Assembly (NCBI GenBank): GCA_013151645.1
Contig: JAADHU010000005.1
Location: 1-64,000 of the forward strand
Source of the DNA: Gammaproteobacteria bacterium
GTDB lineage: Bacteria > Pseudomonadota > Gammaproteobacteria > Steroidobacterales > Woeseiaceae
Direction of reading: 5' to 3'
Length of the DNA: 64,000 nucleotides
Shown: piece by piece, positions 47,550-64,000 of the stretch
Position numbering within the stretch: the first letter of the stretch is position 1
Layout: each line of letters starts with the position of its first letter
Translations under genes and position numbers: made by a program
Notes under the pieces: generated by a model
Databases searched by the model: none
Told to the model about the DNA's origin: nothing
The model's input: only the letters and a program-made list of their open reading frames with translations

Positions 47550-50500
47550 CTACCGCCCGGCTATCCGCTTCAATGTAGCCTGGTCAGCCTTGATCGACAC
47601 CCGGAAGTAAGGCCCCTGCGCCGTGTAGCGAGCCGCGGCAAAATCGTCATCGTAAAAACCATTGACGTTGTAGCCCAGCGTAATCCACACGTTGTCGCGA
47701 ACGTTAAGTCCCAGATCGATACCCACGCCGTAGTCGACGACATTGGACGCATAGGAATGATACGCACTGGCATGAATGCCAGCTTCCCACTTTTGTGCAA
47801 AGCCTTTGCTGAAATCGAGACCGGTGAGGTCGGTATAGCCGGTAACATCGGTGGCGCCGAATTCGCTGCGGACGTATTTGAAGGCATATTGCAGCGCGAT
47901 CTGAGTGGTGGCACTAATCCGTTTGTTGGTATTGAGATTATTGATCAAACGCCAGCTACGTCGCTGACTGAGGACGGAGGAAGCATTTTCGTAGATCAGG
48001 TCGACACGATCGAGGACAGACCACGAGCTTGCCGCCGGTCGAAACGCCCACCCCATACGAGCATTGACGGTCAGCGAATCGGAAGCGTCACTCAGCTTAC
48101 TGCGATAGACCGTCAATCCGGCAGACATGCCGTGACCGAGACTCGGCTCTCGATACCAGCCGGAAATCAGTGACGTGCGCGTCTCATTGTCGGAATCGCG
48201 GAACTCAATGCGACTGTTCACGCTCCAGAACTCTGACTGATAAAGAGTACCGAGAAATGCAGCCGTAAAATCATCTCGTTGGGAACCGAAAGTCAGCTCG
48301 CGTTCGTCGTCAAATCGCCGCAAACCCGGATCGGCCAGGGTTCGCGTTCGATCCAGTCCAACATCGACACTCCAGGATTCATTGACCTGAAAACCCTGAA
48401 TAATGCCCAGATTGGCAAACAATCTTGGCCCGAATTCGCTGCTCTCATTGACGAACGAACTGTTTATTTGTGCACGACTCCAGGGAGAAGCGCGCACACC
48501 GACACGAGTCATTTGAGTCTTGAGATCAGTACCTTGCGCATTTTCCAGCTCGAAGAACATATTGACGTCGGTCAATACTTCATAGTCGAAACCGAGCACG
48601 TAGCTGGAAAGATAATCCGAATTTTCCGTTACATTGTTGATTCCGAGACTGCCGTTCGCACGAATTTTCAGAGCACTGTTAAACAATCGACGACTAACAC
48701 CGCCTTGAACTACATTGCTTGTGCGGGAAACGCCGTCGGTAAAGTCATCTTGTGCGTGCACCAGGCCGAGGGACGCCGAGGATCGATCACCCTGATATCG
48801 GAGGTCGGCCTCCGCGGCAAGTCTCTCCGCGCCGGTCTGCAGATTTTTCTGCTGGGTAGCCCGGGCGTTCAGAGAGACTTCAGACGAAAAGTTATACCGG
48901 CCGTCAAGTCCGAACTTGCGGATCCCCCGTTCGGCGGCGGACTGTTGTTCGAGACCGAACGCCTGATCGACCTCTTTGTACTGGGCTCTCAAATCGAGCT
49001 TGTCGCTACGGTGCTCGACGCTCAGCATCTGCGCGCGACCATCGCTTGCGATACCACCGGCTTCACGGTTGCTTTGTGCGACTTCGGCTCTGACCAGTGT
49101 CTCCTCGTTTGCCCGCCAACGCAGATCGACACCGGTCAGGTCGCCCTCAGCGCCCTGTTGACCTTCGTTTATGTAGGTTAAACCGACCTCGATCGTTTTC
49201 TCACTGTCTCGTACCGCCACTCTCCCGCCGGCCACGATATCGCTGCTGGCGCCCGACGAAGTCTCGTATTCGGCGACGATATAGAGGAGGTTAAACTCGT
49301 TGTCGCGGCTTGGGACAGGTTTCTTGAAATAGAGTGTGCCGTTGAACGGATCGAGATTGTAGTCGAGAAAACGGCTCAACGTCGTGCTGGACAGGACAAC
49401 CGCTGTATCGAAGCGATCTCGAACCTCAATGCGAATGGTCTCGCTATTGCCGATGATAGGAGCACTGCTAAGGCGGTACAACCCGGACGTACCGTCGCCT
49501 TGCAATTCGTCGCGCACAAACGACTGCTCGGTCTCGCTCGCAAAGGCGGAAAGCAGCAGGTTCTGGCCATGATATTCGGTCTTGAAACCGTTAAAGCGAC
49601 GTTCGTAGCGACTGAGTTCAGTCGTGGACAAGGCCGTGCTGTAGTCCCCGAACAGGGCAACAAACTGATTGCGTTCAAGCTTCACATACAGTTTTCGCTG
49701 ACTGGGCGCCTCGAATCGTTGCTCTGAATTATCCGCATAAAGCGTGTAGTACGCATTTGGGTTGATCTCCGTCTGGAATTGACGTCTGGCGTCGTTTCTA
49801 TCGCGAGCGGAATCGTAAGCCAGTGTGAGCAGGTACTCTCCCTTGATCCTTCCTTTCGCGAAAAACGCCAACCGTCCATCGTCGTAATAGCCGCTATTCT
49901 CTCCCGCCTGGGTCGCGGCAAGCGTATTCTTCTTTAGCGTGTTGTAGCCGACCGTACCCTCACCAAAGCCGACCAGAATCCAGTCTCGCGGCTCTGGCTT
50001 GAGCCAGGTCGTCAGCTCCTGTTCGCGCTGCTGATCGAATTTCAGTCGCAGCGTCGCCATGCCGCTGGTGGTCGTTGGCTCAAGTTCAATGAGGGCGATG
50101 CCATCGCGTCCGACCGTGTAAAGCGGTTCGCGATTGCCAATATTCACGATCTTGTTCTTGCGATCGTTCTCGACCGACCACCAGGAACGATACGGTTGAT
50201 CGACTGCAAAAGCGCCGACGCTGGAGTGTCGCGCCGGCTGTCCGAAACGATCGTACAGGCGTACGGCAATAACCGGTCGTGTCCTGCCATCGGCAACGAG
50301 CAGCGACGATTCTCCCAGCAGTTCGCCGCGAACCGGCGCGCCTGCATAGTGGACCGTGCGCAGGAGTCGATCGGCGACCCGCCCGTCGGCACCGATGATG
50401 TCGGCGACCAGTTGATTGGCTCCGGTCAGCAAATCAACGCCGACCCAACGACTGACGGCAACGTTACGCGATGTATTGACTTCCGTGCCATCGAAATTCA

Positions 50501-53500
50501 ACGGGTTGACTTCGAGGCCGTTAATAAAAAGCGCGACGGACTGGTCCAGTCCGTGTTTGATGGAGATTTTCAGCGCCGGTATGGCCGGTCGGAATTCAGC
50601 AGCAGGCAGCACCCAGCCGATGCCCGGCGCGTGCGAATTGATATGCGGCTCCAGTTGTTTGGGTGCCGTCAGGTGATCCGCGAGTGCCTGCTCGTTGAGC
50701 ATTTGCTGCGTTGCTTCTGCAATGCTCGGCGGCAAGCCGCGGGTTTTCGTGATCAGTGTGCCGCTTGATGCCTGTTCAACGCGAAGAAATGATTGTTTGC
50801 CCGGACGCCTGCCAGTGAGCGCCATCTCGACACGGCGATTTTCCTGCCGCCCATTGACCGTGTCATTGCTGGCCACGGGCTCATCGGGACCGCGACCCAG
50901 GACCTGTACGTTTCCTTGCGCTACGTTTAGCGCTTGCGCAACATAGCGGGCGGCCGCCAGAGCGCGTGCTTCTGACAGCACGTAGTTGTCCGCGAACCTG
51001 TGCCGATTCCTGACCGCAATTCCCGTGCTGTCACTGTGGCCCAACGCCGAAATCCGAATATCCTGTACACCGGACCATTCTTGTATCAGCGAATCAAGTG
51101 CCTCCCGATCGACGACTGACAGCTGGTCGGATAACACGCCGAATTGCAGATTGAGCACATAGTCCTCATTTTCGAATGTCGCCGCTTCACGGCGAATCAG
51201 TGTTTCTGCAATGGGTGTTTGTTCGTCGTCTTTAGCCGGCGAATTGAAACGGGCGAGTGCGCGGGTCCGAAGTTCTCCGGATACATCGGCAACAATAACG
51301 CCGCCAAAACGGATGACTTTGCGCCAGTCACCACTCTGGTCTGGCAATGGCAGTGTTAGTGACTGACCGGCAATGCGGGGAACCGGCGCGGTTTCGCCAT
51401 CGAGCGACATCGACCCGGGAACGTAGCTGATGCCATCCGGCAGCAATACCATCACGCTGAGGTCGGTTACGGTGATGCTACCGGTTCCGTCCAGCTTGAG
51501 TTCGTAATGTACTTCGTCACTATTGGCGGAACCGGTATTCATTAGTTCGATATCGATTTTGCCATCCGGCGCAAGTTTACGACGTAGATAGAAATCGGCA
51601 CGTTGCAAACTACCGCGCGACAGGTCGACGAACTGCGAATCACCTCGACCGGCAAATCGTCCCTGGTCAGTACAGCCGACCACCTCGAAATAGTCCGGGA
51701 TCGTTGCTGTATCCAGTTGGGCAATGTGACCGCCTGGACGCAATCCTTCGAAATGGAATCGACCGCCCGCATCCGTGACAGCATAGCGTCCGTCCTCGAG
51801 GTAAACGCGCACATTCGCGACACCGCGGTCTTCCTCAAAGCTCGTCAACGCACAACTTCCATCAACGACGCGCCCGATCAGGGTACTGCTCGAACGGAAA
51901 AGGTCTTCGGCCAGGCGGATTCGCGCCTCGGAAGCGTTCGACACAACCCCGCCGTCGGCGAGCGCGATTGCTGTATTGACAAGTTCGTCATTCTTCACCC
52001 CGGCCACGATTTCGACGACGTAGGCAACCACCGACCGTTGACCGCCGGCGAGGTTTCCAGTTGTAAATACAAGCTCCATGGTCGCTGCATCGATGTCCGG
52101 ATCCATCAACGCAACACCGTCCAGCGTCGCAGAACCGGGCACGTAACGTACACCGGGCGGCAATTGGTCTATGAGCTGCACGGCCTGTGCCGTATCGGTC
52201 GTCGATGTATTCTCGACCACCAGTTCGTAACGGACGAAGTCGCCGGGTGCCGCTACCGTTGTCGTCGTCGACTTGCGCAAGAACAGCGAAGATGCGGCGG
52301 GATCAACCGGGTAGTCGAAACTGAAAGGACCGCCACCCGCGAATGTGAATGAATTGCCGAACGACTCCGGGCCGAGGTTGTATGGCGCATTCGGCAACAG
52401 TTGCAGATCGGCCGCTGCGACACTCGAGGGCGAAGAGTAGGCGTCAGGTGGCGTTACATCGATTCGGTAGTCACCCGCTGGTACGGACGGAAAACGGTAT
52501 TGACCGTTAGCGAATGAATAGCTGGTACCCCCGCTATCTACCGTGACTTCGCCGGTTACAATTGTCGAGGGGAAAATGCTTACACCGTCATTGCCGTAGA
52601 CGGTTGCGGGCAAGCCGCTCGACGTATCCGTAATCTGTACACTCGCACCGTCGATCAATGCACCGCTGCGTGAATCGAATACGACACTGACAGGATCCAG
52701 AATCGCCAGCGCCTCGGCGGAATCGGCAGCATCGGCTGGGTCCGTATAGCGCACGCGTACGCTGGAATCCATACCGCCCTGCACGACGCAATCGCCAAGC
52801 GATACCGGTGCGTTCGCGCTCGGCACATAACCGGCGAAAATACCGGAGTCGATGCCGGTTTCTGTGAGTCGGATTGTTTCTGTGTCACCACTGGAAGGGT
52901 GGCTGACGATCACCGTGGCGGTATCGCGAATTGTGGCGTCCACGTTCTGATCGAAGTCGTCAAGTCGCAGCATAAACGGCTCACCGAGGTTGTAGCTCGA
53001 TGTCACGCTGACATCCTGCGTTAATGCAGGATCGATCGTCAGTCCGCCACTGATTGTAGGGTCCGCAATATCGATGAAAGCTCCCGACTGCAAGCAGGCG
53101 GCGGGCCCCACGCTTTCCTGTAACGTTCCGGCTGCGACGACCCGGGTGAAGGCCAACGATGCCGGAGACCGGATGACCGCCGTTACCAGTTGTACCTCAT
53201 TGCTTGTGACCTGTGTCGGAAGTCCGGCCGCATTTTCATAGGCGACGAACGCCTGATTGGAAATGATGGTCCCCGGGGGTGCTGCAAGTGCCGGTACGGT
53301 CAGTAAAAAGGCAGCAAACGACAGCCAGATCAGGCGACCTTTCGGCCGTTTGTGAATACGCTGAATGCACCTCGGGGGGAACTTGCGTTCCCCCCGAGGG
53401 CTAGCTTGTAGCAGGCCGTGGAGCCTGTCTCCCGGAGGAGAAATACCGGTCGCAAGGGGGCCGGGGCTCCCCAAACGGGCAGCCCAGAACCGGCATTGCC

Positions 53501-53519
53501 TGAACAAACTATTGAGCAC
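47550..53519 (-). CDS. Giant exported protein: DUF11/Ig-like modules, OmpA domain and C-terminal outer-membrane barrel, up to 1989 aa
   Basis: Residue numbers from 53519. Signal-like helix RLIWLSFAAFLLTVPALA (62-79). First module (82-260) resembles the three upstream proteins (GTIISNQAFVAYEN). Carboxypeptidase-regulatory/SdrD-like modules lie at 275-360 and 545-645 (GVANVRVYLEDGRYAVTDAGG), DUF11 repeats at about 408-535 and 640-760 (PPGVRYVPGSATLDG; PDGISYVPGSMSLDG). The OmpA peptidoglycan-binding domain is at 790-903 (ISALGHSDSTG, LSEARALAAARYV, NRRVEM). Ig-like strands follow to about 1175. The last 800 residues have the alternating aromatic pattern of a beta barrel and end FRVSIKADQATLKRIAGR. 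The 53519 start is a GTG without a ribosome site, 14 bp after the upstream gene; the true start is unsettled. Likely an outer-membrane protein anchored to murein. Function unknown. Confidence 0.85.
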   Translation of the reverse strand: MLNSLFRQCRFWAARLGSPGPLATGISPPGDRLHGLLQASPRGERKFPPRCIQRIHKRPKGRLIWLSFAAFLLTVPALAAPPGTIISNQAFVAYENAAGLPTQVTSNEVQLVTAVIRSPASLAFTRVVAAGTLQESVGPAACLQSGAFIDIADPTISGGLTIDPALTQDVSVTSSYNLGEPFMLRLDDFDQNVDATIRDTATVIVSHPSSGDTETIRLTETGIDSGIFAGYVPSANAPVSLGDCVVQGGMDSSVRVRYTDPADAADSAEALAILDPVSVVFDSRSGALIDGASVQITDTSSGLPATVYGNDGVSIFPSTIVTGEVTVDSGGTSYSFANGQYRFPSVPAGDYRIDVTPPDAYSSPSSVAAADLQLLPNAPYNLGPESFGNSFTFAGGGPFSFDYPVDPAASSLFLRKSTTTTVAAPGDFVRYELVVENTSTTDTAQAVQLIDQLPPGVRYVPGSATLDGVALMDPDIDAATMELVFTTGNLAGGQRSVVAYVVEIVAGVKNDELVNTAIALADGGVVSNASEARIRLAEDLFRSSSTLIGRVVDGSCALTSFEEDRGVANVRVYLEDGRYAVTDAGGRFHFEGLRPGGHIAQLDTATIPDYFEVVGCTDQGRFAGRGDSQFVDLSRGSLQRADFYLRRKLAPDGKIDIELMNTGSANSDEVHYELKLDGTGSITVTDLSVMVLLPDGISYVPGSMSLDGETAPVPRIAGQSLTLPLPDQSGDWRKVIRFGGVIVADVSGELRTRALARFNSPAKDDEQTPIAETLIRREAATFENEDYVLNLQFGVLSDQLSVVDREALDSLIQEWSGVQDIRISALGHSDSTGIAVRNRHRFADNYVLSEARALAAARYVAQALNVAQGNVQVLGRGPDEPVASNDTVNGRQENRRVEMALTGRRPGKQSFLRVEQASSGTLITKTRGLPPSIAEATQQMLNEQALADHLTAPKQLEPHINSHAPGIGWVLPAAEFRPAIPALKISIKHGLDQSVALFINGLEVNPLNFDGTEVNTSRNVAVSRWVGVDLLTGANQLVADIIGADGRVADRLLRTVHYAGAPVRGELLGESSLLVADGRTRPVIAVRLYDRFGQPARHSSVGAFAVDQPYRSWWSVENDRKNKIVNIGNREPLYTVGRDGIALIELEPTTTSGMATLRLKFDQQREQELTTWLKPEPRDWILVGFGEGTVGYNTLKKNTLAATQAGENSGYYDDGRLAFFAKGRIKGEYLLTLAYDSARDRNDARRQFQTEINPNAYYTLYADNSEQRFEAPSQRKLYVKLERNQFVALFGDYSTALSTTELSRYERRFNGFKTEYHGQNLLLSAFASETEQSFVRDELQGDGTSGLYRLSSAPIIGNSETIRIEVRDRFDTAVVLSSTTLSRFLDYNLDPFNGTLYFKKPVPSRDNEFNLLYIVAEYETSSGASSDIVAGGRVAVRDSEKTIEVGLTYINEGQQGAEGDLTGVDLRWRANEETLVRAEVAQSNREAGGIASDGRAQMLSVEHRSDKLDLRAQYKEVDQAFGLEQQSAAERGIRKFGLDGRYNFSSEVSLNARATQQKNLQTGAERLAAEADLRYQGDRSSASLGLVHAQDDFTDGVSRTSNVVQGGVSRRLFNSALKIRANGSLGINNVTENSDYLSSYVLGFDYEVLTDVNMFFELENAQGTDLKTQMTRVGVRASPWSRAQINSSFVNESSEFGPRLFANLGIIQGFQVNESWSVDVGLDRTRTLADPGLRRFDDERELTFGSQRDDFTAAFLGTLYQSEFWSVNSRIEFRDSDNETRTSLISGWYREPSLGHGMSAGLTVYRSKLSDASDSLTVNARMGWAFRPAASSWSVLDRVDLIYENASSVLSQRRSWRLINNLNTNKRISATTQIALQYAFKYVRSEFGATDVTGYTDLTGLDFSKGFAQKWEAGIHASAYHSYASNVVDYGVGIDLGLNVRDNVWITLGYNVNGFYDDDFAAARYTAQGPYFRVSIKADQATLKRIAGR
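53340..53519 (-). other. Hairpin-rich stretch at the 5' end of the giant gene
   Basis: Between the upstream stop (53534) and the signal-peptide codons lie successive hairpins on the minus strand: GGGCT...AGCCC, TCTCC-tcc-GGGAGA, CAGGC-tccacg-GCCTG, and a perfect 13-bp stem with a 4-base loop at 53370-53399 (CCTCGGGGGGAAC / GTTCCCCCCGAGG). The region is open in the frame but, read as protein, has no family character, so it may be an untranslated structured leader or a processed N-terminus. I do not match it to a known riboswitch. Confidence 0.6.
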
Positions 53520-53533
53520 CGTAACGGAGTGGT

Positions 53534-54682
53534 TTAGTTAATGGTCACTCTGAAACTTATTACCGCAGGGTTATCTGTCCCTGTGGTACCTACCGTCAGG
53601 CCAGGATCAATAGTGATCGTTGCGCCAGCTGTACCACAACCGTCGCCATCACCATCTCCCGCATCCAGACTGCAAGTGCTTACGGTCGTACCCGCACCCA
53701 GATCGATCCTGGCATCCTGCCCCGGGGCACCGTAGCCGCCCAGAACGAGTGTCAGGTCACTGCTCAGCACATCTGCAATACGAACCTGATCAGCATTGAC
53801 CGCGCCGGTATTCTCGACGGTAATTTCGAACTCCACCGTCGCACCCGGAATCGCTTTCGGATTGACGCCGAGATTGAACGGATCGCTGATAACCGACGAT
53901 GATTTGGTGATCGTGAGTGCAGCTGATGACACTTGATAGCCGTCCGCGGACACTTCAAGGCCGTCACCGATACTACCGGCGCCATCATCGGCAAACACAA
54001 CCTCGACCGTGGTTGTGCTATCGACCGAAGCCGCGTCATCCGTCGTAAGCGCACCCAGCGCGGTGGCAACACCGGCGTCGTGGGTTGTTGCCGTTACTTC
54101 GATGTTACCAACATCCGCATTGACCAAAGCGACGTTTGCGTCGACAACGACAAAGACGAGAGTGGATGCGTCTGCCAGTAGTTCATCGACAAATATTAGA
54201 TCGGCGGGAGTCCAGGTGGCACTGCCATCGGTATCCGCAAAGACACGCAGGTTGCTCATGTCCACCGTATCGGTATTTCCGTTTACCGCACCGCCAACCA
54301 GATTGACCACCGCGAGGTTATAGTCTTGCGGCGAGTTACCTGTGTTGGTCAACTCGAATGTCGTAACGGCGTCCGGCTGTCCAGGATTGACTTGCGTCGC
54401 ACCAATCAGACCGAATTCAACCAGTGTGAAGTCAACTCGGTTGTCGACCAAGAATGTCGTCGCCAACGCACCACTGGCGAGGCCCGGCGCGCTGTTACCA
54501 TTCGGATCGGATAAAATGGGCTCTTGCGTATTGCCACCCACAGCATAATCCACCTGTGCCTGATTGGAGATCGACACACCGGCGTCGGTGCCGACGGCGA
54601 AAGCCTGCTGCGAGAAAAACAGCACAAGCACGATTGAACTCAGCCGCGCAAAGCGACCAAAGCCTGTTATTAAACGTTTCAT
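53534..54682 (-). CDS. Exported DUF11-type protein, 382 aa
   Basis: Signal peptide MKRLITGFGRFARLSSIVLVLFFSQQAFA, cut before VGTDAG. The opening GVSISNQAQVDYAVGG parallels the first module of its two larger neighbours. The C-terminal half contains a clear DUF11 repeat (GATVEFEITVENTGAVNADQVRIADVLSSDLTL). The whole chain is rich in Asp, Thr, Val and Gly and nearly free of Cys apart from two near the end (CSLDAGDGDGDGCG), an aspartate-rich loop that could bind calcium. ATG 54682 has AAGGAG at seven bases. It lacks a barrel or sorting signal, so it is probably secreted or periplasmic. Function unknown. Confidence 0.85.
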   Translation of the reverse strand: MKRLITGFGRFARLSSIVLVLFFSQQAFAVGTDAGVSISNQAQVDYAVGGNTQEPILSDPNGNSAPGLASGALATTFLVDNRVDFTLVEFGLIGATQVNPGQPDAVTTFELTNTGNSPQDYNLAVVNLVGGAVNGNTDTVDMSNLRVFADTDGSATWTPADLIFVDELLADASTLVFVVVDANVALVNADVGNIEVTATTHDAGVATALGALTTDDAASVDSTTTVEVVFADDGAGSIGDGLEVSADGYQVSSAALTITKSSSVISDPFNLGVNPKAIPGATVEFEITVENTGAVNADQVRIADVLSSDLTLVLGGYGAPGQDARIDLGAGTTVSTCSLDAGDGDGDGCGTAGATITIDPGLTVGTTGTDNPAVISFRVTIN

Positions 54683-54819
54683 TACGGTACTCCTTGCTTC
54701 ATTGCAAAAAAGATATTCGCCGGCATTCATTGCCGGACAGGGGCTCTGAGCACCTGCAGCCTTCCCTGCACCAGACTGCAGCTATCCCCCGTCCGGGGGA
54801 TCGCCGATTTCAAAATCTG
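54683..54819 (-). promoter_or_regulatory. Structured intercistronic leader with competing stems
   Basis: Minus strand: a hairpin ATCCCCC-ggac-GGGGGAT (around 54784-54801), then CTGCAG...CTGCAG, then CCGGCA-atgaa-TGCCGG near the gene. The bases 54787-54796 could instead pair with 54733-54743 (CCGGAC-GGGG against CCCCTGTCCGG, one bulge), which would open the first and third hairpins. This is the layout of a switchable leader, but no ligand class is recognised. Confidence 0.45.
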
Positions 54820-55308
54820 CTAGTCGAGTCGCGCTCGAAATTGCGACATACCCTGCGATCCGGCCGGAATTTCACCGACCATCACCCAGCGGATGTGCGT
54901 AAAGTCCTTGACGGTTGCCGATCGCGGCACGCCCGTATCGTTCACTGTCAACTCACCCGCTTTGGCAAAGGTCTTGCCGCCATCCACCGAAAACACGATC
55001 TCGGCACCTGGGCCGAAAGCCGAACCGTCTACGTAGGTCAGTTGTTCCGGCAACGGATTGGTGATGACGACGTTCTCAGCTGGCTGGTCACCGATATTGG
55101 CGAATGTCACGGTATAGATGACTTCGTCACCGGGAACGACTTTCGCCGCCTCCACCAGCTGCGTGCTGCGTTTGCCCGCTTCATCAATCGTGACTTCCTC
55201 TTTTTGCACTGTCGTAGTGACATTGAGGTGCCCGCTGGTCTGTGCACCGGCATTGCCGGCACTGGCCAGGACGAGAAAGAATATTCCTGCTTGCATTACA
55301 TTTTTCAT
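54820..55308 (-). CDS. Small exported DUF11-domain protein, 162 aa
   Basis: Signal MKNVMQAGIFFLVLASAGNAGA, cut before QTSG. The remainder is essentially one DUF11 domain: VVPGDEVIYTVTFANIGDQPAENVVITNPLPEQLTYVDGSAFGPG, followed by VFSVDGGKTFAKAGELTV and TVKDFTHIRWVMVGEIPAGSQGMSQFRARL. The ATG at 55308 follows AAGGGGG. It is the second gene of the DUF11 operon, 32 bp after the first. Such single-domain proteins could be the subunit of a surface layer or a partner of the giant protein; this is inference. Confidence 0.85.
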   Translation of the reverse strand: MKNVMQAGIFFLVLASAGNAGAQTSGHLNVTTTVQKEEVTIDEAGKRSTQLVEAAKVVPGDEVIYTVTFANIGDQPAENVVITNPLPEQLTYVDGSAFGPGAEIVFSVDGGKTFAKAGELTVNDTGVPRSATVKDFTHIRWVMVGEIPAGSQGMSQFRARLD

Positions 55309-55340
55309 TACGGCCCCCTTATGGCTGTAAGTTGGTTTGC

Positions 55341-56366
55341 TCAATCGATCGTGACTTGGAAAGACACCGTCTGGACGCCGTCCGCCTGAGTTAGATCACC
55401 CAGGCGAATAACAACCGTCGGCACACCACTGACATCGAGTTCACCCGAATCGGCATCGGTCGCGTCCGTCAGTCCGCCGCCATTCAGTGAAATGCTTGCT
55501 GTCACGTAGCTGGTGTTCGTTGGTACCGGGTCGGTGAAGACACTCCCCACCGCAGTGCCGGTATTGGTCACCTCGACGGTGACTGTGTAGGTAAGCGTGG
55601 CGCCGGGTACCGATTCAGTACCTCCGAATGGATCCGCGACGGCAACGGTTTTGACAATATTGATGACGACGTCACCAATCACATACGCACCCGTGTTAGC
55701 CGCGCTACCACCGGTGGTACCAATAACGGCATCAACTCCACCGTCGCCCTGGTTCGCGAATACATCTCCCGGCGCACCGGTACCGCTTACCGATGTCGCG
55801 GCAAGTTCACTACGCCCGATATCGCCATTGACCGCAGACGCAGGAATCCCGTTCACCAGCAGGATGCCTATCGACTCATCCGCCGCGAGCTGTGGATCAT
55901 TCGTTCCCGGCGTATAGGCAACATCGCCAAGACTAAAGTCGCCACTGGCATCGGAATCGAAATAGATTGCCGGCACCGATGGCACAGGATCGAAATCGTC
56001 GCCACCCAGGTTACTGTCCAGCGCCAATCGAAATACCTCGTTGCCATTGCCGGTATTGCTGACCGTGAAAAGCAGGCTTCGATCGACCGCACCCGCATTG
56101 ACGAGAAGTTGCGGGCTCTGCAGCGTCACAACCACGTCAATGCGCTCATCGACTGTGATACTGACGGTATTGGAAATAAGCGTTACATTGGTCCCGCTGA
56201 TATCGAAATCGACCTGCGCCGTATTGTCGATGACAGTGCCGGCGGCTGTGCCGGCGGCCCATGCGGGTTGAACCTGAAACAGAATTGTTGCGCACAACAG
56301 CAACGCTGGCATCCATGCAGGCGGCCGCGCGACAGCGAATCGCTGTTCAAATAGCTCTGATATCAA
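55341..56366 (-). CDS. Exported DUF11-type protein, 341 aa
   Basis: The TTG at 56366 has AAGGAA about eight bases upstream; an ATG at 56312 is the alternative. The export signal is MPALLLCATILFQVQPAWA. The first module starts GTVIDNTAQVDFDISGTNVTLISNTV, as in the giant protein. A middle domain carries DSDASGDFSLGDVAYTPG, a calcium-loop-like Asp pattern, and a final DUF11 domain has GATLTYTVTVEVTNTGTAVGSVFTDPVPTNTSYV. It is the first gene of the operon; no membrane anchor follows the signal. Confidence 0.85.
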   Translation of the reverse strand: MISELFEQRFAVARPPAWMPALLLCATILFQVQPAWAAGTAAGTVIDNTAQVDFDISGTNVTLISNTVSITVDERIDVVVTLQSPQLLVNAGAVDRSLLFTVSNTGNGNEVFRLALDSNLGGDDFDPVPSVPAIYFDSDASGDFSLGDVAYTPGTNDPQLAADESIGILLVNGIPASAVNGDIGRSELAATSVSGTGAPGDVFANQGDGGVDAVIGTTGGSAANTGAYVIGDVVINIVKTVAVADPFGGTESVPGATLTYTVTVEVTNTGTAVGSVFTDPVPTNTSYVTASISLNGGGLTDATDADSGELDVSGVPTVVIRLGDLTQADGVQTVSFQVTID

Positions 56367-56744
56367 GGTTCATTCCTTAATCGCAGCAGCGGTGCGATCA
56401 AGACCGGCCATGGCCGGCAATCGTCCGCTATTAATCCCTTATCGGGCATCGCATCATTGCGAGTCCGGCGACTGTTGAGTAATTGCGAAAGGGCTGCACG
56501 GAATCGCAGCGATTTGTCGTCAATCTGTGATCGGCCTCACGCTTTGCCCGTGATGCCGCTCACAGTCGCGATGCCAGCGAAACGTTGACGTTTCGAAGGG
56601 CTGGATGGATTCCGGATGCGTGTTATGTCGTCAAAAGGACGTGGACCGGGCGTCATTGCCAGGCATTTCGGCAACAGTAGCGCTGCGAATTTTCCTGTCA
56701 GCCTATCGAGGAAGAAATGGCGGGATTGGCATTGCTGGTCCGGG
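56367..56744. other. Upstream region of the DUF11 operon
   Basis: 378 bp between the sigma-54 activator stop and the first DUF11 gene. It contains no gene. It should hold the operon promoter. I looked on the minus strand for GG-N10-GC sigma-54 elements and found none with a TGGCA core. The palindrome GACCGGCCATGGCCGGC (56402-56418) and several short inverted repeats are present. Confidence 0.5.
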
Positions 56745-59144
56745 CTAGTGTTCGGTATTGCGTTGAATACCCAGTTTCTTCATTTTTGAGCGCAGGGTGC
56801 TTGGCGGGATGCCGAGCTTGGCCGCCGCTCCGCCCGGGCCCGCTATTTGCCATTCGGTTTGCGCCAGGATAGTGGAGATGTGCTCCCTTTCGGCAGAGCG
56901 TAAGTCAAGCGGGCTTTCGACGGTGCCGATGATCGTCGAAACAGGGGCAGGAGAAACCAGCCGTTTCTTGTCGAGCGCTTCAGCAAGACCAAGCACCGGT
57001 CCGCCGGCCGAAATTAATGCCCGTTGAACGATACTTTCGAGTTCACGCACGTTGCCAGGCCACGAGAACGCGTCCAACTGTTCCATCATTATCCCGGATA
57101 CGCCCGTCACTTCCCGGCCCAACGCCGGGGCATGCTTCGCGATGAAGTGTTCAACAAGTATCGGAATATCTTCCTTGCGCTCACGTAGTGGTGGCAACAT
57201 GATAGGAAAAGTATTGATTCGATAAAAAAGATCGGCGCGAAAATCCCCATGGTCGACGGCCTCCTGCAGCATCCTGTTGGTTGCAGCAATAATGCGGACG
57301 TCGACTTGAATCGTTCGACTGCCACCCAACCGCTCGAATTCGCCTTCTTGCAAGACGCGCAACAGCTTGCCCTGCAAATCAATTGGCAAATCACCAATCT
57401 CATCAAGAAACATCGTGCCACCGTCGGCAAGATCAAATCTGCCACGCTTGCGCGAGTCGGCGCCGGTAAACGCACCTTTCTCATGCCCGAACAACTCGCT
57501 TTCAATAAGGTTCGCGGGGAGTGCGGCGCAATTCACTTTCACCAACGCCCGATCGCTTCGATTGCTGCGTTCGTGTACCGCCCTTGCCACCAACTCCTTA
57601 CCCGTACCCGTTTCGCCAAGCACCAGTACCGTCGTGTCAGTTTCCGCCACCTGTGCGACTTGCTGTAAACATTTGATCAGGACTTTACTTTCACCCACCA
57701 GTTCATTGAAACCGTGCGTCGATCGTATCTCCTGGCGAAGATAGACGTTCTCCGCCTGCAGTCGATCTCTGGCCAGGCGCAGCTCATCGAGAGCGTCGTC
57801 CAGCGACTTTTTGACATTCATGCGGTTGACAACGTTCGACAGCAGGCTGGACAGCAACTCGATATCCTTCAACAGCTGTTCAGACCACTGTATCTCTTCG
57901 TGTATCGACGCAAAGCCACAAACACCGACGACGTCACCACCGATGACTACCGGAACTACGGCAATTGACTTCACACCGAGTCTGGTCATAAGCAGCTTGT
58001 CTTTGACGACATCCGGCATGTTTGCGACAACATCGATTGCAACGGTTTCACCTCGCAGAAGTTGTGCAGCCGACCACGAAAAGGCATCAATCGAAAGCTC
58101 GACCCAGGGTGGTCCTCCATGCTCATTCCATGAAAACAGAAGTTCCGCGCGATTGGTCGTACGGTCAAACCAGATCAGACTGACGCGATCAGCCATCGCG
58201 TACCGGCAAGCCAGTTTAAGGCTACCTTGCAGAACCTCACCCAAATGTTCATCCGGCGTCGTGATGAGGCGTGACGATATGTCAGCCACCGTCTGTTGAA
58301 AGCGCGCGCGATCCCGTAGCCCGGATTCCGCCTTACGAGTCGCCAGAATATCTTTCTCCGAGCCCCAGACCCGGAATAGACCGCCGTTCTTGATGACACC
58401 CGTAATGTTCAGAAGCAGCGCTCTTTCTATTCCCTCAGTACTGGTGGAATGGTCCTCACGATCAACCAGCCGATAGCCACCCGCAACGAAGTCGCGAAAC
58501 AACTGTTCATGCGCCTCCGCACCAAATGCCGAATTCATGTGTCGGTAACGCTTGCCAATGATCTGGGCGGGACTGCTCGCACCGACTGCCCTAGCGTACG
58601 CCGAGTTGCATTCGACCAGGACGCCATCGTAGGTTTGGCATGCCTGTTCGTCCAATGGCAGCGTCGTGTCAATCGGTGGCGAGAATTCGAAACAATAGAC
58701 TGAATCCGTATATTGCTCGACCAACGAACGAAACCGGTTCTCCGAGTCGACGATTCTCTCGACGGCCTTTGCTGCATTTTTTTCTGATCGGCGCATCGAC
58801 TGCTCCGACTCGGCAAAGTACCTGGCTGATGCAATCCCGCCGGCCACGATGAGCGCGAATGAAAGCAAGGTAACCGGCACTCGAAGATGCTGCTGCAGGA
58901 ATTCCATCGCAGCATGTGACGCTGCCGGTTCGACGAGTTCGGGCAGAACCGTTAAAACAACCAGGTCCGCGAGATAGTAAAGCGCGGTTGTGACGATACC
59001 GGCGGCGATCAATACCCGACCGGTAAGCGGTACCCGGCCTTTTTGAAAGATACCTTTAGGGATAGACACTGCCAGCAGAACCACCGCAAGCCCGACGATG
59101 ATCAGGTCCACCAGCACCAATGATGAGAATGTACTCCAGATCAT
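56745..59144 (-). CDS. Membrane-anchored PAS-GAF sigma-54-dependent transcriptional activator, 799 aa
   Basis: Three N-terminal hydrophobic helices (about 8-28, 43-66, 89-107), then a PAS domain (135-265), a GAF domain (285-440) and a coiled coil (445-475). The AAA+ domain (480-710) has Walker A GETGTGKE, the sigma-54 contact loop GAFTGA intact at 557-562, Walker [11 protein letters not shown] and an R-finger region ([27 protein letters not shown]). A Fis-type HTH ends the protein ([23 protein letters not shown]). No receiver domain, so it senses through the membrane/PAS/GAF part. It lies upstream of the DUF11 operon on the same strand and divergent from a gene pair with a sigma-54 promoter. 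Confidence 0.93.
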
Positions 59145-59262
59145 TTCAGCTTCGACTCAGACGACCCGACGAAAAAAAGAAGTAACTACGTCAACGGCAC
59201 CCCGACATACTACGCACTCGGGTCGATGGCGTATTCATAACACCAGACCGGGCCCGGGTCAC

Positions 59263-59299
59263 GAAATATCGCGTCAAAACGTATCGGGCGCGAGATTTC
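59263..59299. promoter_or_regulatory. Inverted repeat, candidate enhancer for the sigma-54 activator
   Basis: GAAATATCGCG (59263-59273) and CGCGAGATTTC (59289-59299) are inverted copies with one mismatch in 11, separated by 15 bp. They lie 100-150 bp upstream of the -24/-12 promoter, where enhancer-binding proteins usually bind. Which protein binds is inferred from proximity. Confidence 0.55.
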
Positions 59300-59400
59300 A
59301 CGAGCTGCACAGCGCGTCGACGCTCTCGTCAATCTCGGGAAAACTGCTAACCGATTGTTTCTACACTATTAACCGGTATTCCCCAGCCATCGCTCGTAGT

Positions 59401-59416
59401 TGGCACAGTTTCTGCA
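59401..59416 (+). promoter_or_regulatory. Sigma-54 (-24/-12) promoter
   Basis: TGGCACAGTTTCTGCA: the -24 GG and -12 GC dinucleotides are 10 bp apart, and TGGCAC is a perfect -24 element. Transcription would start near 59427, giving a 70-base leader before the ATG at 59499. Confidence 0.8.
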
Positions 59417-59498
59417 CTGTACCTATGACATTAGCTCTTTTCGTTGTGTGCTGCGCACCCAATATAGCCATAAAGCTTGGATAAGTACGGGGAAACAC

Positions 59499-60032
59499 AT
59501 GAAAAATGATGAAAATCGCGTCCGCATCCTGCTGATTCAAAATCAGGAAAGTACGCTGCGCACCGTTCAGCGAACGCTGGAATTAAACAAGACACGTTGC
59601 CAGCTGCATATGGTCGGGATCGGTCCCGCCACCCTGAATTACCTGCGGCGGGAGGAACCCTATGCGGATGCACCGACTCCGGACCTGGTGCTGTTTGATT
59701 TAAGCGATGCCGCTCCCGCCTCGATTGAAGTGGTCAAGGCTATCAAAGCCGACAACCGGTGCCACTCACTGCCCATGGTGTTGCTGATCAACGAGGGTTC
59801 CGAAGACAAGGTCGTCAAACTCGTCAGCAAACGCGGCCAGGACAATGCGTTCTCCCCGGTCGATCTCGACAGTTTTATCAAGGCATTGAATTCTTTCAAA
59901 CCCGATCGATTCATGCATGCTGTCACGCTGCTGGAGAATTTCGGGTATGTTCTCGTGCGGATGCCACGCATCCCCGTTGATGCAAAACCGCTGCTGGATC
60001 ACCGGCCGGCGCCAGCGGCAGTCGCTATGTAG
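59499..60032 (+). CDS. Degenerate receiver-domain protein, 177 aa
   Basis: The fold pattern is that of a response-regulator receiver (RVRILLIQNQES at strand 1, PDLVLFDLSDAAPASIEVVKAIKAD at strand 3, LPMVLLINEGSEDKVVKLVSKRGQDNAF at strand 4). An Asp lies at the phosphorylation place (Asp67). The usual acidic pair after strand 1 is replaced by Gln/Asn, and the conserved Lys-Pro after strand 5 reads FSPVD. There is no output domain, only a short basic tail (LENFGYVLVRMPRIPVDAKPLL). GGGG lies six bases before the ATG. It precedes the HDOD gene by 86 bp and is likely co-transcribed from the sigma-54 promoter. It resembles the Rcp1-like family with a long last helix, but phosphorylation is doubtful. 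Confidence 0.8.
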   Translation: MKNDENRVRILLIQNQESTLRTVQRTLELNKTRCQLHMVGIGPATLNYLRREEPYADAPTPDLVLFDLSDAAPASIEVVKAIKADNRCHSLPMVLLINEGSEDKVVKLVSKRGQDNAFSPVDLDSFIKALNSFKPDRFMHAVTLLENFGYVLVRMPRIPVDAKPLLDHRPAPAAVAM

Positions 60033-60118: not shown

Positions 60119-60955
60119 ATGTCCGCAGATGAACAAGCACAGTTTTTGCAAAAACTCGCAGAAGACTTAAACACCAGGAACATTGTATTGCCGTCCTTTC
60201 CGGACGTTGTCATCAAGATTCGCACGGCGCTTGAAGACCCGACCTGCAGCTCCGGTCGGCTTGCAGAAGTCGCCAAACTTGATCCCGTTCTGGTCTCTCG
60301 ATTGCTAATGGCGGCTAATTCGGCTTTTCACAATCGTGCCGGAATTGAAATTGTTGACCTGAATCTTGCCATCAGCCGGTTGGGCTTCGAGGTTGTGCGC
60401 AATACCGCAATCACCTTGGCCATCGAACAGATCTTCAATGCGTCGCAGCACGAAGCATTGCGAGAACGACTACAGGTGCTGTGGGCCAGAAGCATGTCCC
60501 TGTCATCAATGTGTTACGTGATCGCCCGTTCCGCTGCGCCCCTCAACGCGGACCACGCGTTCCTTGCCGGTCTTCTGCACGATGTAGGTAAATTGTATAT
60601 TTTGACGCAGGCGAAAGAGTATCCCGGTTTTCTCGGTGACGAAGATTCATTGAATACGGTATTGCGCGACTGGCACCCAAGCGTTGGCTGTTCCATTGTC
60701 GGCGCCTGGGGTTTCGCCGGGGAAGTCGTTCAATCGATCGACATTGACGAAAATCTGGATACGGCGTCGAGTCGCGGAGCTGCACTGGTCGATGTGGTTT
60801 ACGCCGCAATCGCACTGCTTGATGCGCCCGAAGAGACGCTCACCAAAATACCGCTGCATCCGTCGATGCAGCGCCTTGGCGTAACCGGCGACTCGTTTAC
60901 CGAAATCAGCGAAGCCGCGGAACTGCACGCTCAGTCGATGCGCCATTCCATCTAG
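60119..60955 (+). CDS. HDOD-domain signalling protein, 278 aa
   Basis: HDOD proteins are HD-related signalling or scaffold proteins, often tied to cyclic-di-GMP, motility or stress networks. The domain begins VLPSFPDVVIKIRTALEDPTCSSGRLAEVAKLDPVLVSRLLMAANSAF and continues with NLAISRLGFEVVRNTAI. The HD-like helix carries AFLAGLLHDVGKLYIL. The C-terminal part is helical and continues the HDOD fold, with no GGDEF or kinase fusion. The ATG at 60119 follows AGGGGA. Its TAG stop (60953-60955) is followed by GCGGCGTGTTGAAC, similar to the left end of the MITE-like repeats. Confidence 0.9.
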   Translation: MSADEQAQFLQKLAEDLNTRNIVLPSFPDVVIKIRTALEDPTCSSGRLAEVAKLDPVLVSRLLMAANSAFHNRAGIEIVDLNLAISRLGFEVVRNTAITLAIEQIFNASQHEALRERLQVLWARSMSLSSMCYVIARSAAPLNADHAFLAGLLHDVGKLYILTQAKEYPGFLGDEDSLNTVLRDWHPSVGCSIVGAWGFAGEVVQSIDIDENLDTASSRGAALVDVVYAAIALLDAPEETLTKIPLHPSMQRLGVTGDSFTEISEAAELHAQSMRHSI

Positions 60956-61099: not shown

Positions 61100-61720
61100 C
61101 TATTGACGAAACGCGACGTTGTACTGGGTGGCGACCGCATAGCTGGTTAGTGTGCTGTGCGACTGAATGCTGCCGGTACTTGGCACACCGTCATCGCCAC
61201 GCGACTCGAGAATCATTGCGATATCGCCCGGGATAGCGCCGAAGATGATGGTGTGTCCGCTAAGATTATAGCCGCGAAGCTGAACGCCGATGAGGCCGCC
61301 AAAGGCATTGGATGGCTGTTGATAGCTGGCAGTCGTATTGTCCACCGGACCTGCGATCAATCCGGAACCCCGCAGGTGCTTCCACAGCTTGCGAGACTCG
61401 TCGGTATCCGTGGAACTGGCCCACGAACCTGAAATTGAGCCGTTGCCGTTGCCGTTGTCGGCCGCAGCCCAGGTGCCGGAAAAGCGGGTTGAGGCAGAGG
61501 GGTCGTCGCCCGGCAGCGCGCCGTAACGATCCTGGTAGGCAAAGATCGCGGCAGAGACACCGGAAAAGTCTTTTTCGATGCGACCGACCTTCGCGTTGGT
61601 AATCATTTCCCGGCCCTTCAGGACGCCACCGATCAACAGGCCGATAATAACCAGCACGATTGCAATTTCCACGAGCGTAAAGCCCGATTGCTTACGTAAA
61701 TCCATCCTATTTTTATTCAC
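61100..61720 (-). CDS. Prepilin-type (type IV pilin/pseudopilin) protein, 206 aa
   Basis: The prepilin peptidase site and helix read KQSGFTLVEIAIVLVIIGLLIGGVLKGREMI, with cleavage after Gly and Glu at +5. The globular part has the GALPGDDPSASTRF stretch and a Gly/Asn-rich run (AADNGNGNGSISGSW) before SRKLWKHLRGSGLIAG. GTG at 61720 follows AAGGA at seven bases; an ATG at 61705 is possible but lacks a site. It is the last of three prepilin-related genes on this strand; 142 bp separate it from the next one upstream. It could be a major pilin or a minor pseudopilin. Confidence 0.88.
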   Translation of the reverse strand: MNKNRMDLRKQSGFTLVEIAIVLVIIGLLIGGVLKGREMITNAKVGRIEKDFSGVSAAIFAYQDRYGALPGDDPSASTRFSGTWAAADNGNGNGSISGSWASSTDTDESRKLWKHLRGSGLIAGPVDNTTASYQQPSNAFGGLIGVQLRGYNLSGHTIIFGAIPGDIAMILESRGDDGVPSTGSIQSHSTLTSYAVATQYNVAFRQ

Positions 61721-61862
61721 GACAGTATCCTTGTTTTCGATAAATCAGCTGCACTCTTACGGGCCGTCTGTCCGGGTTTCGATCATTCCTGATAGGCTTA
61801 TCGACCTTCTGTCGGGATACTTTAGGTACTGCGTCACAGTGCGCAACGCGCTCAGCAGAGCG

Positions 61863-62627
61863 CTACGGCAGCTGTCCGCTGATAACTAATTCGTGATAGA
61901 GGCTCAGTGGCGACATCCACACCACCACGTCGTCGAATTCACTACCGCTTTGCCCCGACCGCGAACGACTGACAAAGACCAGATCGGCGGCGACCGGATA
62001 GTTTGTGCCGGACGGTCCACCACCGAGCGTCGCGCCGGCATTTTCGAGTTGATCGGCACCGCCGAACGATGCCCAGTCTTTGCCCATTGAATAAACGATC
62101 ATCGGCGCCCGGGATGACAAAGTTGTCGTCGTACTGCCACAGGCCGACGCCGTCGTACCGGCCGCCGTGCTGCAAACAGACAGATCGGGAGCGAGATCGG
62201 GCATGCCAACGTCACGCAATTCCCCGCCGGTGGTAAAATCCCAGTATCCATCGCCGTCAACGTCCGCCGCCGAAACGCTGTAACGAAACGGTGATCCCCA
62301 GGGGTCCAGCAACAGATTGTCGTCGTTGCGGGAACCCGGCAGACCCAGCGTCGATGCCGGTACGAAGCCGTGCTGCACCGCGCAACCGCCGCCGGCCGTC
62401 GCTGCCAGCCCGGCGCTTGCGGGCGTCGCCGGACACGGCAAATAGCCGTTGGCGAGCGCATATCCCTGCAAGGCCTCTTCAATGTATTCCAGAACCTCAC
62501 GTACGTCCCGGACGCGAAGATTTTCTCTCTGGGCCGACAGCGGCATGGCAATACCACCCAGAATCAGCCCCATAATCAGTATCACGATCGATAACTCAAC
62601 CAGCGTGAAGCCTTTTTCCGCACGCAT
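61863..62627 (-). CDS. Prepilin-type protein with long globular domain, 254 aa
   Basis: The N-terminus MRAEKGFTLVELSIVILIMGLILGGIAMPL is a prepilin with a very short leader. NLRVRDVREVLEYIEEALQGYALANGYLPCPATP is the ALQGYA...LPCP pattern shared with the upstream partial gene. Two pairs of cysteines and a Ser-rich region follow, and LLDPWGSPFRYSVSAADVDGDGYWDF has a calcium-loop-like Asp pattern. AGGAGG lies seven bases before the ATG, just after the stop of the upstream gene. Probably a minor pilin or pseudopilin of the same assembly. Confidence 0.86.
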   Translation of the reverse strand: MRAEKGFTLVELSIVILIMGLILGGIAMPLSAQRENLRVRDVREVLEYIEEALQGYALANGYLPCPATPASAGLAATAGGGCAVQHGFVPASTLGLPGSRNDDNLLLDPWGSPFRYSVSAADVDGDGYWDFTTGGELRDVGMPDLAPDLSVCSTAAGTTASACGSTTTTLSSRAPMIVYSMGKDWASFGGADQLENAGATLGGGPSGTNYPVAADLVFVSRSRSGQSGSEFDDVVVWMSPLSLYHELVISGQLP

Positions 62628-62638
62628 CTTTATGCCTC

Positions 62639-64000
62639 CTAACACGAAGTCACCGCGAGCGTCGGATCGATACAAATGACAATGTCATTGAAGGAGTCCG
62701 TCGCCGGCATGGATTGGTAATCGGCCGCGCCACCGCGGTACGGATGATTGAGCGCGTTCGCACCCTCCAGATAGTTGCCGATCCGGCCTCTGGTGTCTGC
62801 GTCAATCGGCGGCGCGTTTCTCGTCTGGGCGGACGCGCTCAAACGCTCACCGGAAAAAAATACCATCGCGGCATACTGTCCGCCGCCGTTTATCGACAGA
62901 CAATTTCCGCACTGAACCGGCACCACGGCCGATGGCTGAAAGGCATCTGCGACAACGTAGAAGAAATGATCTTTCCAGGTCCGCCACAATGCCAGCGACG
63001 TGTTGTTCCATTCCGGAACCTTTGCTGGATCGCAGTCGCCGAGTACTCGCAAGACGCTGCTACCGGTTACCCCGGCGCTGTCATCCACTGAATCCGGGAG
63101 CCGCCCGGAATACAGGCCCGTATTCACATCGTCGTAAGAATTGTCGTCCGCGTAGTTTGCCATCGACATCTGTGCCGGCCAGGGCAGTCTGCTATCGGCG
63201 AGGCCGGCGGCATTTGATCGCCCATACGCAGCGATGCATGCCGCAACGCCTTGTGTAAGTGCCGTCATCCTGGCGGCGAAGTCGTGCCGCCGATAGATGG
63301 CTTTCGCCAGTTCGTCACGACCGAGGCTAATAATGCGATCGTTGTGAGAGGCATTGGCGCCGGTGGCCACAGCGAATGTTTCAATGACGTACGGACTGGC
63401 CGACAAGGCCGCATTGGAAACACCAACAGTCGCGTCAGCCTCCAGAAAATCGGTCGCTGTAAAATCATCACTACAATTTCCGCCGGGGGAGCCGGCGGCC
63501 GCTCTCGACTGCCCGGCCACTGCTTCCATCGGCGCGATAATCATCGCAACCGGTCGATCTTCCGGTGCGATTCCGGCAATCATCTGTCCGCTATCGATGG
63601 AGTACAACTGCAGTTGTCCGTTTGAATCCGGATTGATCATTGTCGATGTCGATGCTGCCGCATTTTTGTAACTGCCGGAAACAACGTACCAGAGACAGGT
63701 ACCGCTACTATCGTGATACGGGCGCGTAGCCAGTGTTTTCCACGGAAATCGCCCCATAACCGCGACGCCTGAATTTCCGCACGCTGCGGTATGTGCTTCA
63801 CCATCCTGCCAGGGGCCGGTCGCATCGATATCCGGGCACGGCAGTCGCGCCGCAGCACCCGGTGAAAACTCTGAATACGTTGTCGCGTATTCGATCAACG
63901 CCTGCTTTGCCATCGCGAGTACGCGCTGCGTGTCCGCATTTCGTTCATTGCGCGCGAGCCCGGATCGCAACTTGCCGACAAGCAGCGCGGATGCCGCGAC
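62639..64000 (-). CDS. Partial pilus-associated protein, 5' end beyond the window
   Basis: The frame is open to the window edge (VAASALLVGKLRSGLARNERNADTQRVLAMAKQALIEYATTYSEF), so about 453 codons are seen without the start. The block AKQALIEYA ... AARLPCPDID matches the ALxxYA-LPCPD region of the next gene and is found in proteins encoded with prepilins. A run of cysteine pairs (CGNSGV, CLWYV, CSDDF, CIAAYG, CDPAKV, CGNC) suggests disulfides outside the cell. The N-terminal membrane part lies off the window, so whether it starts with a prepilin leader cannot be seen. Confidence 0.75.
   Translation of the reverse strand, partial: VAASALLVGKLRSGLARNERNADTQRVLAMAKQALIEYATTYSEFSPGAAARLPCPDIDATGPWQDGEAHTAACGNSGVAVMGRFPWKTLATRPYHDSSGTCLWYVVSGSYKNAAASTSTMINPDSNGQLQLYSIDSGQMIAGIAPEDRPVAMIIAPMEAVAGQSRAAAGSPGGNCSDDFTATDFLEADATVGVSNAALSASPYVIETFAVATGANASHNDRIISLGRDELAKAIYRRHDFAARMTALTQGVAACIAAYGRSNAAGLADSRLPWPAQMSMANYADDNSYDDVNTGLYSGRLPDSVDDSAGVTGSSVLRVLGDCDPAKVPEWNNTSLALWRTWKDHFFYVVADAFQPSAVVPVQCGNCLSINGGGQYAAMVFFSGERLSASAQTRNAPPIDADTRGRIGNYLEGANALNHPYRGGAADYQSMPATDSFNDIVICIDPTLAVTSC

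Follow-up and report, generated by a model that had tools for sequence, protein, structure and literature searches.

An activator gene and a divergently transcribed gene for a receiver-like protein in the window, the 64-kb stretch of DNA analysed here, very probably form a dedicated sigma-54 circuit, in which the activator, tandem dyads, an IHF site and a -24/-12 promoter would govern a receiver-encoding transcript that starts at about 59427 and probably extends into an HDOD gene. A self-contained circuit with a divergent cognate activator and the receiver-like protein as target had been proposed in an earlier note on this DNA, and the proposal is supported by an equivalent promoter site in 19 of 19 loci, a near-unique operator and the presence of rpoN (sigma-54) in the window's genome. 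At the level of sequence comparison, our analysis establishes the predicted promoter and operator, their geometry, the pairing of activator and promoter and the near-unique target. Divergent one-component sigma-54 circuits are known from NorR–norVW, PspF–pspA and RtcR–rtcBA, with which the window's locus shares an activator gene divergent from its target, enhancer sites in the gap that separates them and a sigma-54 promoter. The circuit design is textbook and its kind well known; the instance is new, and its receiver-like target is unusual.

The window belongs to a 3.96-Mb genome in 83 contigs; the closest named relatives in the public collection are uncultured Gammaproteobacteria, of which several carry the label Woeseiaceae. 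Among the 149 genomes searched for the activator (the window's own included), 20 gave a strong match, and 19 of these belong to the same family. Judged by coordinates, the receiver gene adjoins the activator gene in divergent orientation in the window and 15 relatives; for G060 and G063, either the assembly breaks up the pair or no receiver was detected. The promoter comparison had 20 rows, one of which (L124) is apparently the same locus as G042 and was not counted. These relatives are not independent samples, and what is said here of whole genomes is based on searches by pattern and by family. Most relatives keep the order pilC-pilB-pilA, HDOD-receiver, activator, DUF11 a-b-c-large. When loci were picked by the pilin gene alone, the circuit was present in most close relatives with a sufficiently long contig, one exception being L129, which has HDOD without the activator; the circuit is missing from the pilin loci of more distant Gammaproteobacteria.

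The predicted promoter TTGGCACAGTTTCTGCA (TTGGCAC-N5-CTGCA) lies at 59400–59416 on the forward strand and combines TGGCAC (T59401–C59406) and CTGCA (C59412–A59416), separated by five bases, in a TGGCACR-N4-TTGCW-like context. Its GG (59402–3) and GC (59414–5) are 12 bases apart, the distance that sigma-54 requires, which would place +1 at 59427. The near-consensus TGGCAC-N5-CTGCA reported earlier at 59401–59416 is thus exact in position and spacing, and it is also the top match in the 64-kb window (18.0, with a runner-up of 15.3) to a sigma-54 matrix that is approximate, having been written from general knowledge of the consensus. An equivalent site of 15.6–18.9 bits, reading towards the receiver gene and downstream of a common operator, is found in all 19 family circuit loci; no other site in the relative loci examined (6–17 kb each) scores as high as 15.5. 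Sites of at least 15.5 bits arose in 10 of 6,000 shuffled regions (~0.2%).

Upstream of the promoter, the relatives' intergenic regions have in common an 18-bp dyad, with consensus GTCACGATATTTCGCGAC, centred near -150 and followed after 19–20 bp by a second, looser copy. The predicted first copy in the window, GTCACGAAATATCGCGTC (59258–59275), matches the family consensus and is centred at -160.5 from the predicted +1, as against -149.5 to -154.5 in 14 loci. The second copy, GGCGCGAGATTTCACGAG (59287–59304), is weaker and putative, weak when taken alone and proposed from a comparison of intergenic regions by eye; it follows at 29 bp, about one helical turn more distant than in the relatives. 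Such conserved tandem dyads, with a first centre at about -150, are predicted to be the distal upstream binding sites of an enhancer-binding protein. When 19 whole genomes were searched with GTCRCGATATWTCGYGAC, allowing up to two mismatches, the locus copy was recovered in every one, perfect in 13, and no perfect copy turned up outside the circuit locus; in the window's genome the locus copy is the sole match. Because the perfect dyad occurs once per genome, at the circuit locus, in 13 relatives, the activator looks dedicated to a single promoter. The 11-bp inverted repeat described earlier (59263–59273/59289–59299) is real, with 10 of 11 pairs, but it is not the unit, as it spans parts of two tandem 18-bp dyads; for the same reason, the genome scan with the exact repeat that the earlier note had asked for matched only the repeat itself.

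Between operator and promoter lies a putative IHF-like site, TAACCGATTGTTT (59348–59360, forward strand), centred at -73. Of the 19 loci, 13 (the window included) carry at -73/-74 a sequence with no more than one mismatch to YAANNNNTTGATW, the consensus established for IHF in other bacteria, and two with a shorter spacer carry one at -64/-61, against a background of 5 such matches in 1,905 other positions. IHF may therefore bind at about -73, and this candidate site rounds off what reads as a classic enhancer-loop promoter.

Two other readings of the promoter region have to be weighed. The -24/-12 match and the inverted repeat could be chance resemblances: shuffling the intergenic region 200 times gave an inverted repeat as good in 13 cases (6.5%), the repeat alone being weak evidence, and the pattern TTGGCAC-N6-TGCA has 7 matches genome-wide compared with 2 for a control pattern. 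Chance is nevertheless exceedingly improbable given that sequence, position and orientation are conserved in 19 loci amid differing flanking bases, and that site and operator recur at the corresponding place in diverged relatives. Alternatively, the promoter is real but is used by another sigma-54 activator, the divergent one not being its activator, or not its only one. The window's genome encodes 13 strong Sigma54_activat proteins, one of which (contig 75) is 45% identical to the divergent activator over residues 171–797. We consider this alternative very unlikely, since operator, promoter and activator co-occur in 19 genomes, the perfect operator is confined to the locus and no operator was found in the 17 kb surrounding the contig 75 homologue, a result on which that homologue was also rejected as a second such circuit. 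Control by the divergent activator is the reading that we retain. A second sigma-54 activator homologue, of ~1500 amino acids and 46–48% identical in its C-terminal part, recurs in several circuit genomes (L082–L087, in G029, G063, G082, G046, G053 and G023).

The activator (799 amino acids; 56745–59144, reverse strand) was characterized by Pfam, hydropathy, an AlphaFold model of its N-terminal part and an alignment of 12 orthologues. Hydropathy and the model indicate three membrane-type helices at the N-terminus, followed by PAS and GAF folds, and the domains comprise PAS (173–247), GAF (301–437), AAA+ with GAFTGA (482–648) and HTH_8 (748–791), the Pfam matches being PAS, GAF, Sigma54_activat, AAA_lid and HTH_8. 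With Walker A and GAFTGA in its AAA+ domain and a Fis-type HTH, the protein has the hallmarks of a bacterial enhancer-binding protein, and the GAFTGA motif, earlier described as intact, is indeed so (residue 557). The HTH stretch is nearly invariant across the aligned orthologues, which fits one operator common to all of them. Variants of GAFTGA occur among the orthologues (one GAYTGA, one GAFTDA and one GAFTSA); the latter two belong to G009 (L052) and G083 (L049), respectively, yet promoter and operator are conserved in both.

As in NorR, GAF, AAA+ and Fis HTH follow each other in that order. In contrast to the NorR, PspF and RtcR systems, three N-terminal membrane helices and a PAS domain precede GAF in the window's activator, and its target is a receiver-like protein rather than an enzyme. 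The activator does not reach the cut-off of any NCBIfam model listed, including the NorR equivalog NF003451 (355.3 of 476 bits), the NifA model (378 of 529) and PrsR (TIGR02915; 318.5 of 502.6 bits). The last is among its top NCBIfam matches, and sigma-54 control in an exterior-related neighbourhood is a further likeness to the PrsK/PrsR regulators of PEP-CTERM systems; unlike PrsR, the window's activator has no receiver domain. A literature search for membrane-anchored sigma-54 activators found no direct precedent in the papers covered, and neither did one for HDOD with RpoN, absences that prove little.

The proposed target (177 amino acids; 59499–60032, forward strand) has no Pfam match and is assigned as an Rcp1-like single-domain receiver by family alignment, structure model and Foldseek. 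The model (pLDDT 81.3) has the alternating alpha/beta receiver fold and matches receivers with a Foldseek E value of 2.6e-6, at moderate TM-scores (~0.6 by target), the top matches being Rcp1 and bacteriophytochrome response regulators (1jlk, 5ic5 and 4zyl). By contrast with these regulators, the beta-5 Lys is absent from all 15 family members, although the phospho-Asp (D67 in the window) is kept in all 15; the window's protein has a Q-N pair in place of the acidic pair and Ile in place of the beta-4 Thr, and no phytochrome kinase adjoins its gene. The protein thus lacks the full set of acidic pair, phospho-Asp, Thr/Ser and Lys that defines a canonical response regulator. Searching plasmids with it returned remote response regulators only. 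A paralogue, 61% identical, lies at a contig edge (G000:C62:17744-18250; L038), next to a hybrid histidine kinase with a hemerythrin domain and a receiver-EAL protein; by eye, no clear sigma-54 promoter was seen in the 153 bp upstream, which end at the contig edge.

Behind the receiver gene lies the probable second gene of the unit, encoding an HDOD protein (60119–60955, forward strand; Pfam HDOD, 1e-33). The earlier note had counted it as a member of the circuit, which is plausible in that it directly follows the receiver gene in most relatives, but it does not do so in four (G066, G083, G053 and G023), and the circuit-free locus L129 keeps HDOD next to the pilin gene. In the window, the two genes are probably co-transcribed.

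On the activator's other side lies a conserved four-gene DUF11 operon (47550–56366, reverse strand), which the earlier note had suggested as a further object of circuit control and which our analysis does not establish as a target. In favour of such control, a DUF11 gene is present in all 19 activator-bearing family genomes, nearly always adjoining the activator. The same note had found no sigma-54 site there, and our scan of the gap between activator and DUF11 genes agrees, with none above 11 bits; instead, the region contains a predicted tandem pair of CRP-type operators (TGTGAGCGGCATCACG and CGTGAGGCCGATCACA; 56526–56564, reverse strand) of the form TGTGA-N6-TCACA, at a spacing of 23 bp. 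A script recovered the pair at this spacing in 12 of 13 circuit genomes; in the thirteenth, G083, the pair is visible by eye, the script having paired another match. We read 14 circuit-free DUF11 loci. Ten of them retain the pair with 23-bp spacing and three, more distant, do not; in G011, a good site is accompanied by a poor one at spacing 22. The sister species G001 retains both the DUF11 genes (85% identical) and the dyads, with no activator between them and none found in its genome, which is 82% complete. DUF11 genes occur in 51 genomes and the activator in 20. The sigma-54 circuit is therefore very unlikely to drive the DUF11 surface operon as well. With no sigma-54 site and with CRP-type dyads that recur in circuit-free genomes, the operon most likely answers to a CRP-type regulator, independently of the sigma-54 circuit; a CRP-like protein whose recognition helix is typical is encoded in the window's genome.

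Immediately ahead of the DUF11a start (56367–56378, reverse strand) stands AAGGAATGAACC(TTG). Its core is shared by 12 of 13 circuit genomes and G001; the element did not turn up in the remaining circuit-free DUF11 loci that we read. Base pairing between its AAGG and CCTT may enclose the ribosome-binding site; alternatively, ATGAACCTT may be where a short leader peptide begins.

For the working of the circuit, we infer a ligand or signal, an active oligomer, a role for IHF, co-transcription of HDOD and an output. The earlier note had named an envelope or redox signal, between which the PAS and GAF domains do not discriminate. A signal that acts on the activator's membrane, PAS or GAF portion would free the AAA+ ring, and the membrane-anchored one-component protein (TM-PAS-GAF-AAA+-Fis HTH) would bind the two tandem dyads ~120–170 bp upstream. 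IHF would bend the DNA at about -73, folding it back, and the AAA+ ring would open the sigma-54 polymerase at 59400–59416. The resulting transcript, from about 59427, would carry the gene for the atypical, Rcp1-like receiver and probably, in the window, that for the HDOD protein; the receiver, with or without HDOD, would probably act as a protein-binding adaptor. For the output, our favoured but tentative suggestion is that it adjusts the neighbouring type IV filament machine via protein–protein contacts of receiver and HDOD, the filament machine being named as the likely partner because of the neighbourhood only. More broadly, and as speculatively, the Woeseiaceae may have evolved a family of membrane-anchored single-target activators with the pseudo-receiver (with HDOD) as sole product, a non-phosphorylated adaptor that would set the activity of the adjacent type IV filament machine, separate from the CRP-type control of the DUF11 surface proteins.

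The locus offers a fully drawn, testable regulatory unit of activator, operator, bend site, promoter and target for largely uncultured sediment bacteria, and tells apart two regulators, sigma-54 and a CRP-type protein, at one surface-structure locus. An activator with one predicted target and a defined 18-bp operator is also convenient for reconstitution.

The filament operon itself is represented in the window by pilin-like genes (61100–63970, reverse strand); GspE- and GspF-like genes lie further along it in a relative. No sigma-54 site was seen at the window's pilin gene. At two loci of more distant Gammaproteobacteria (L138:3483 and L151:4407), a strong sigma-54 site stands 47–79 bp upstream of the match to the pilin-gene homologue, and a sigma-54 activator gene lies nearby.
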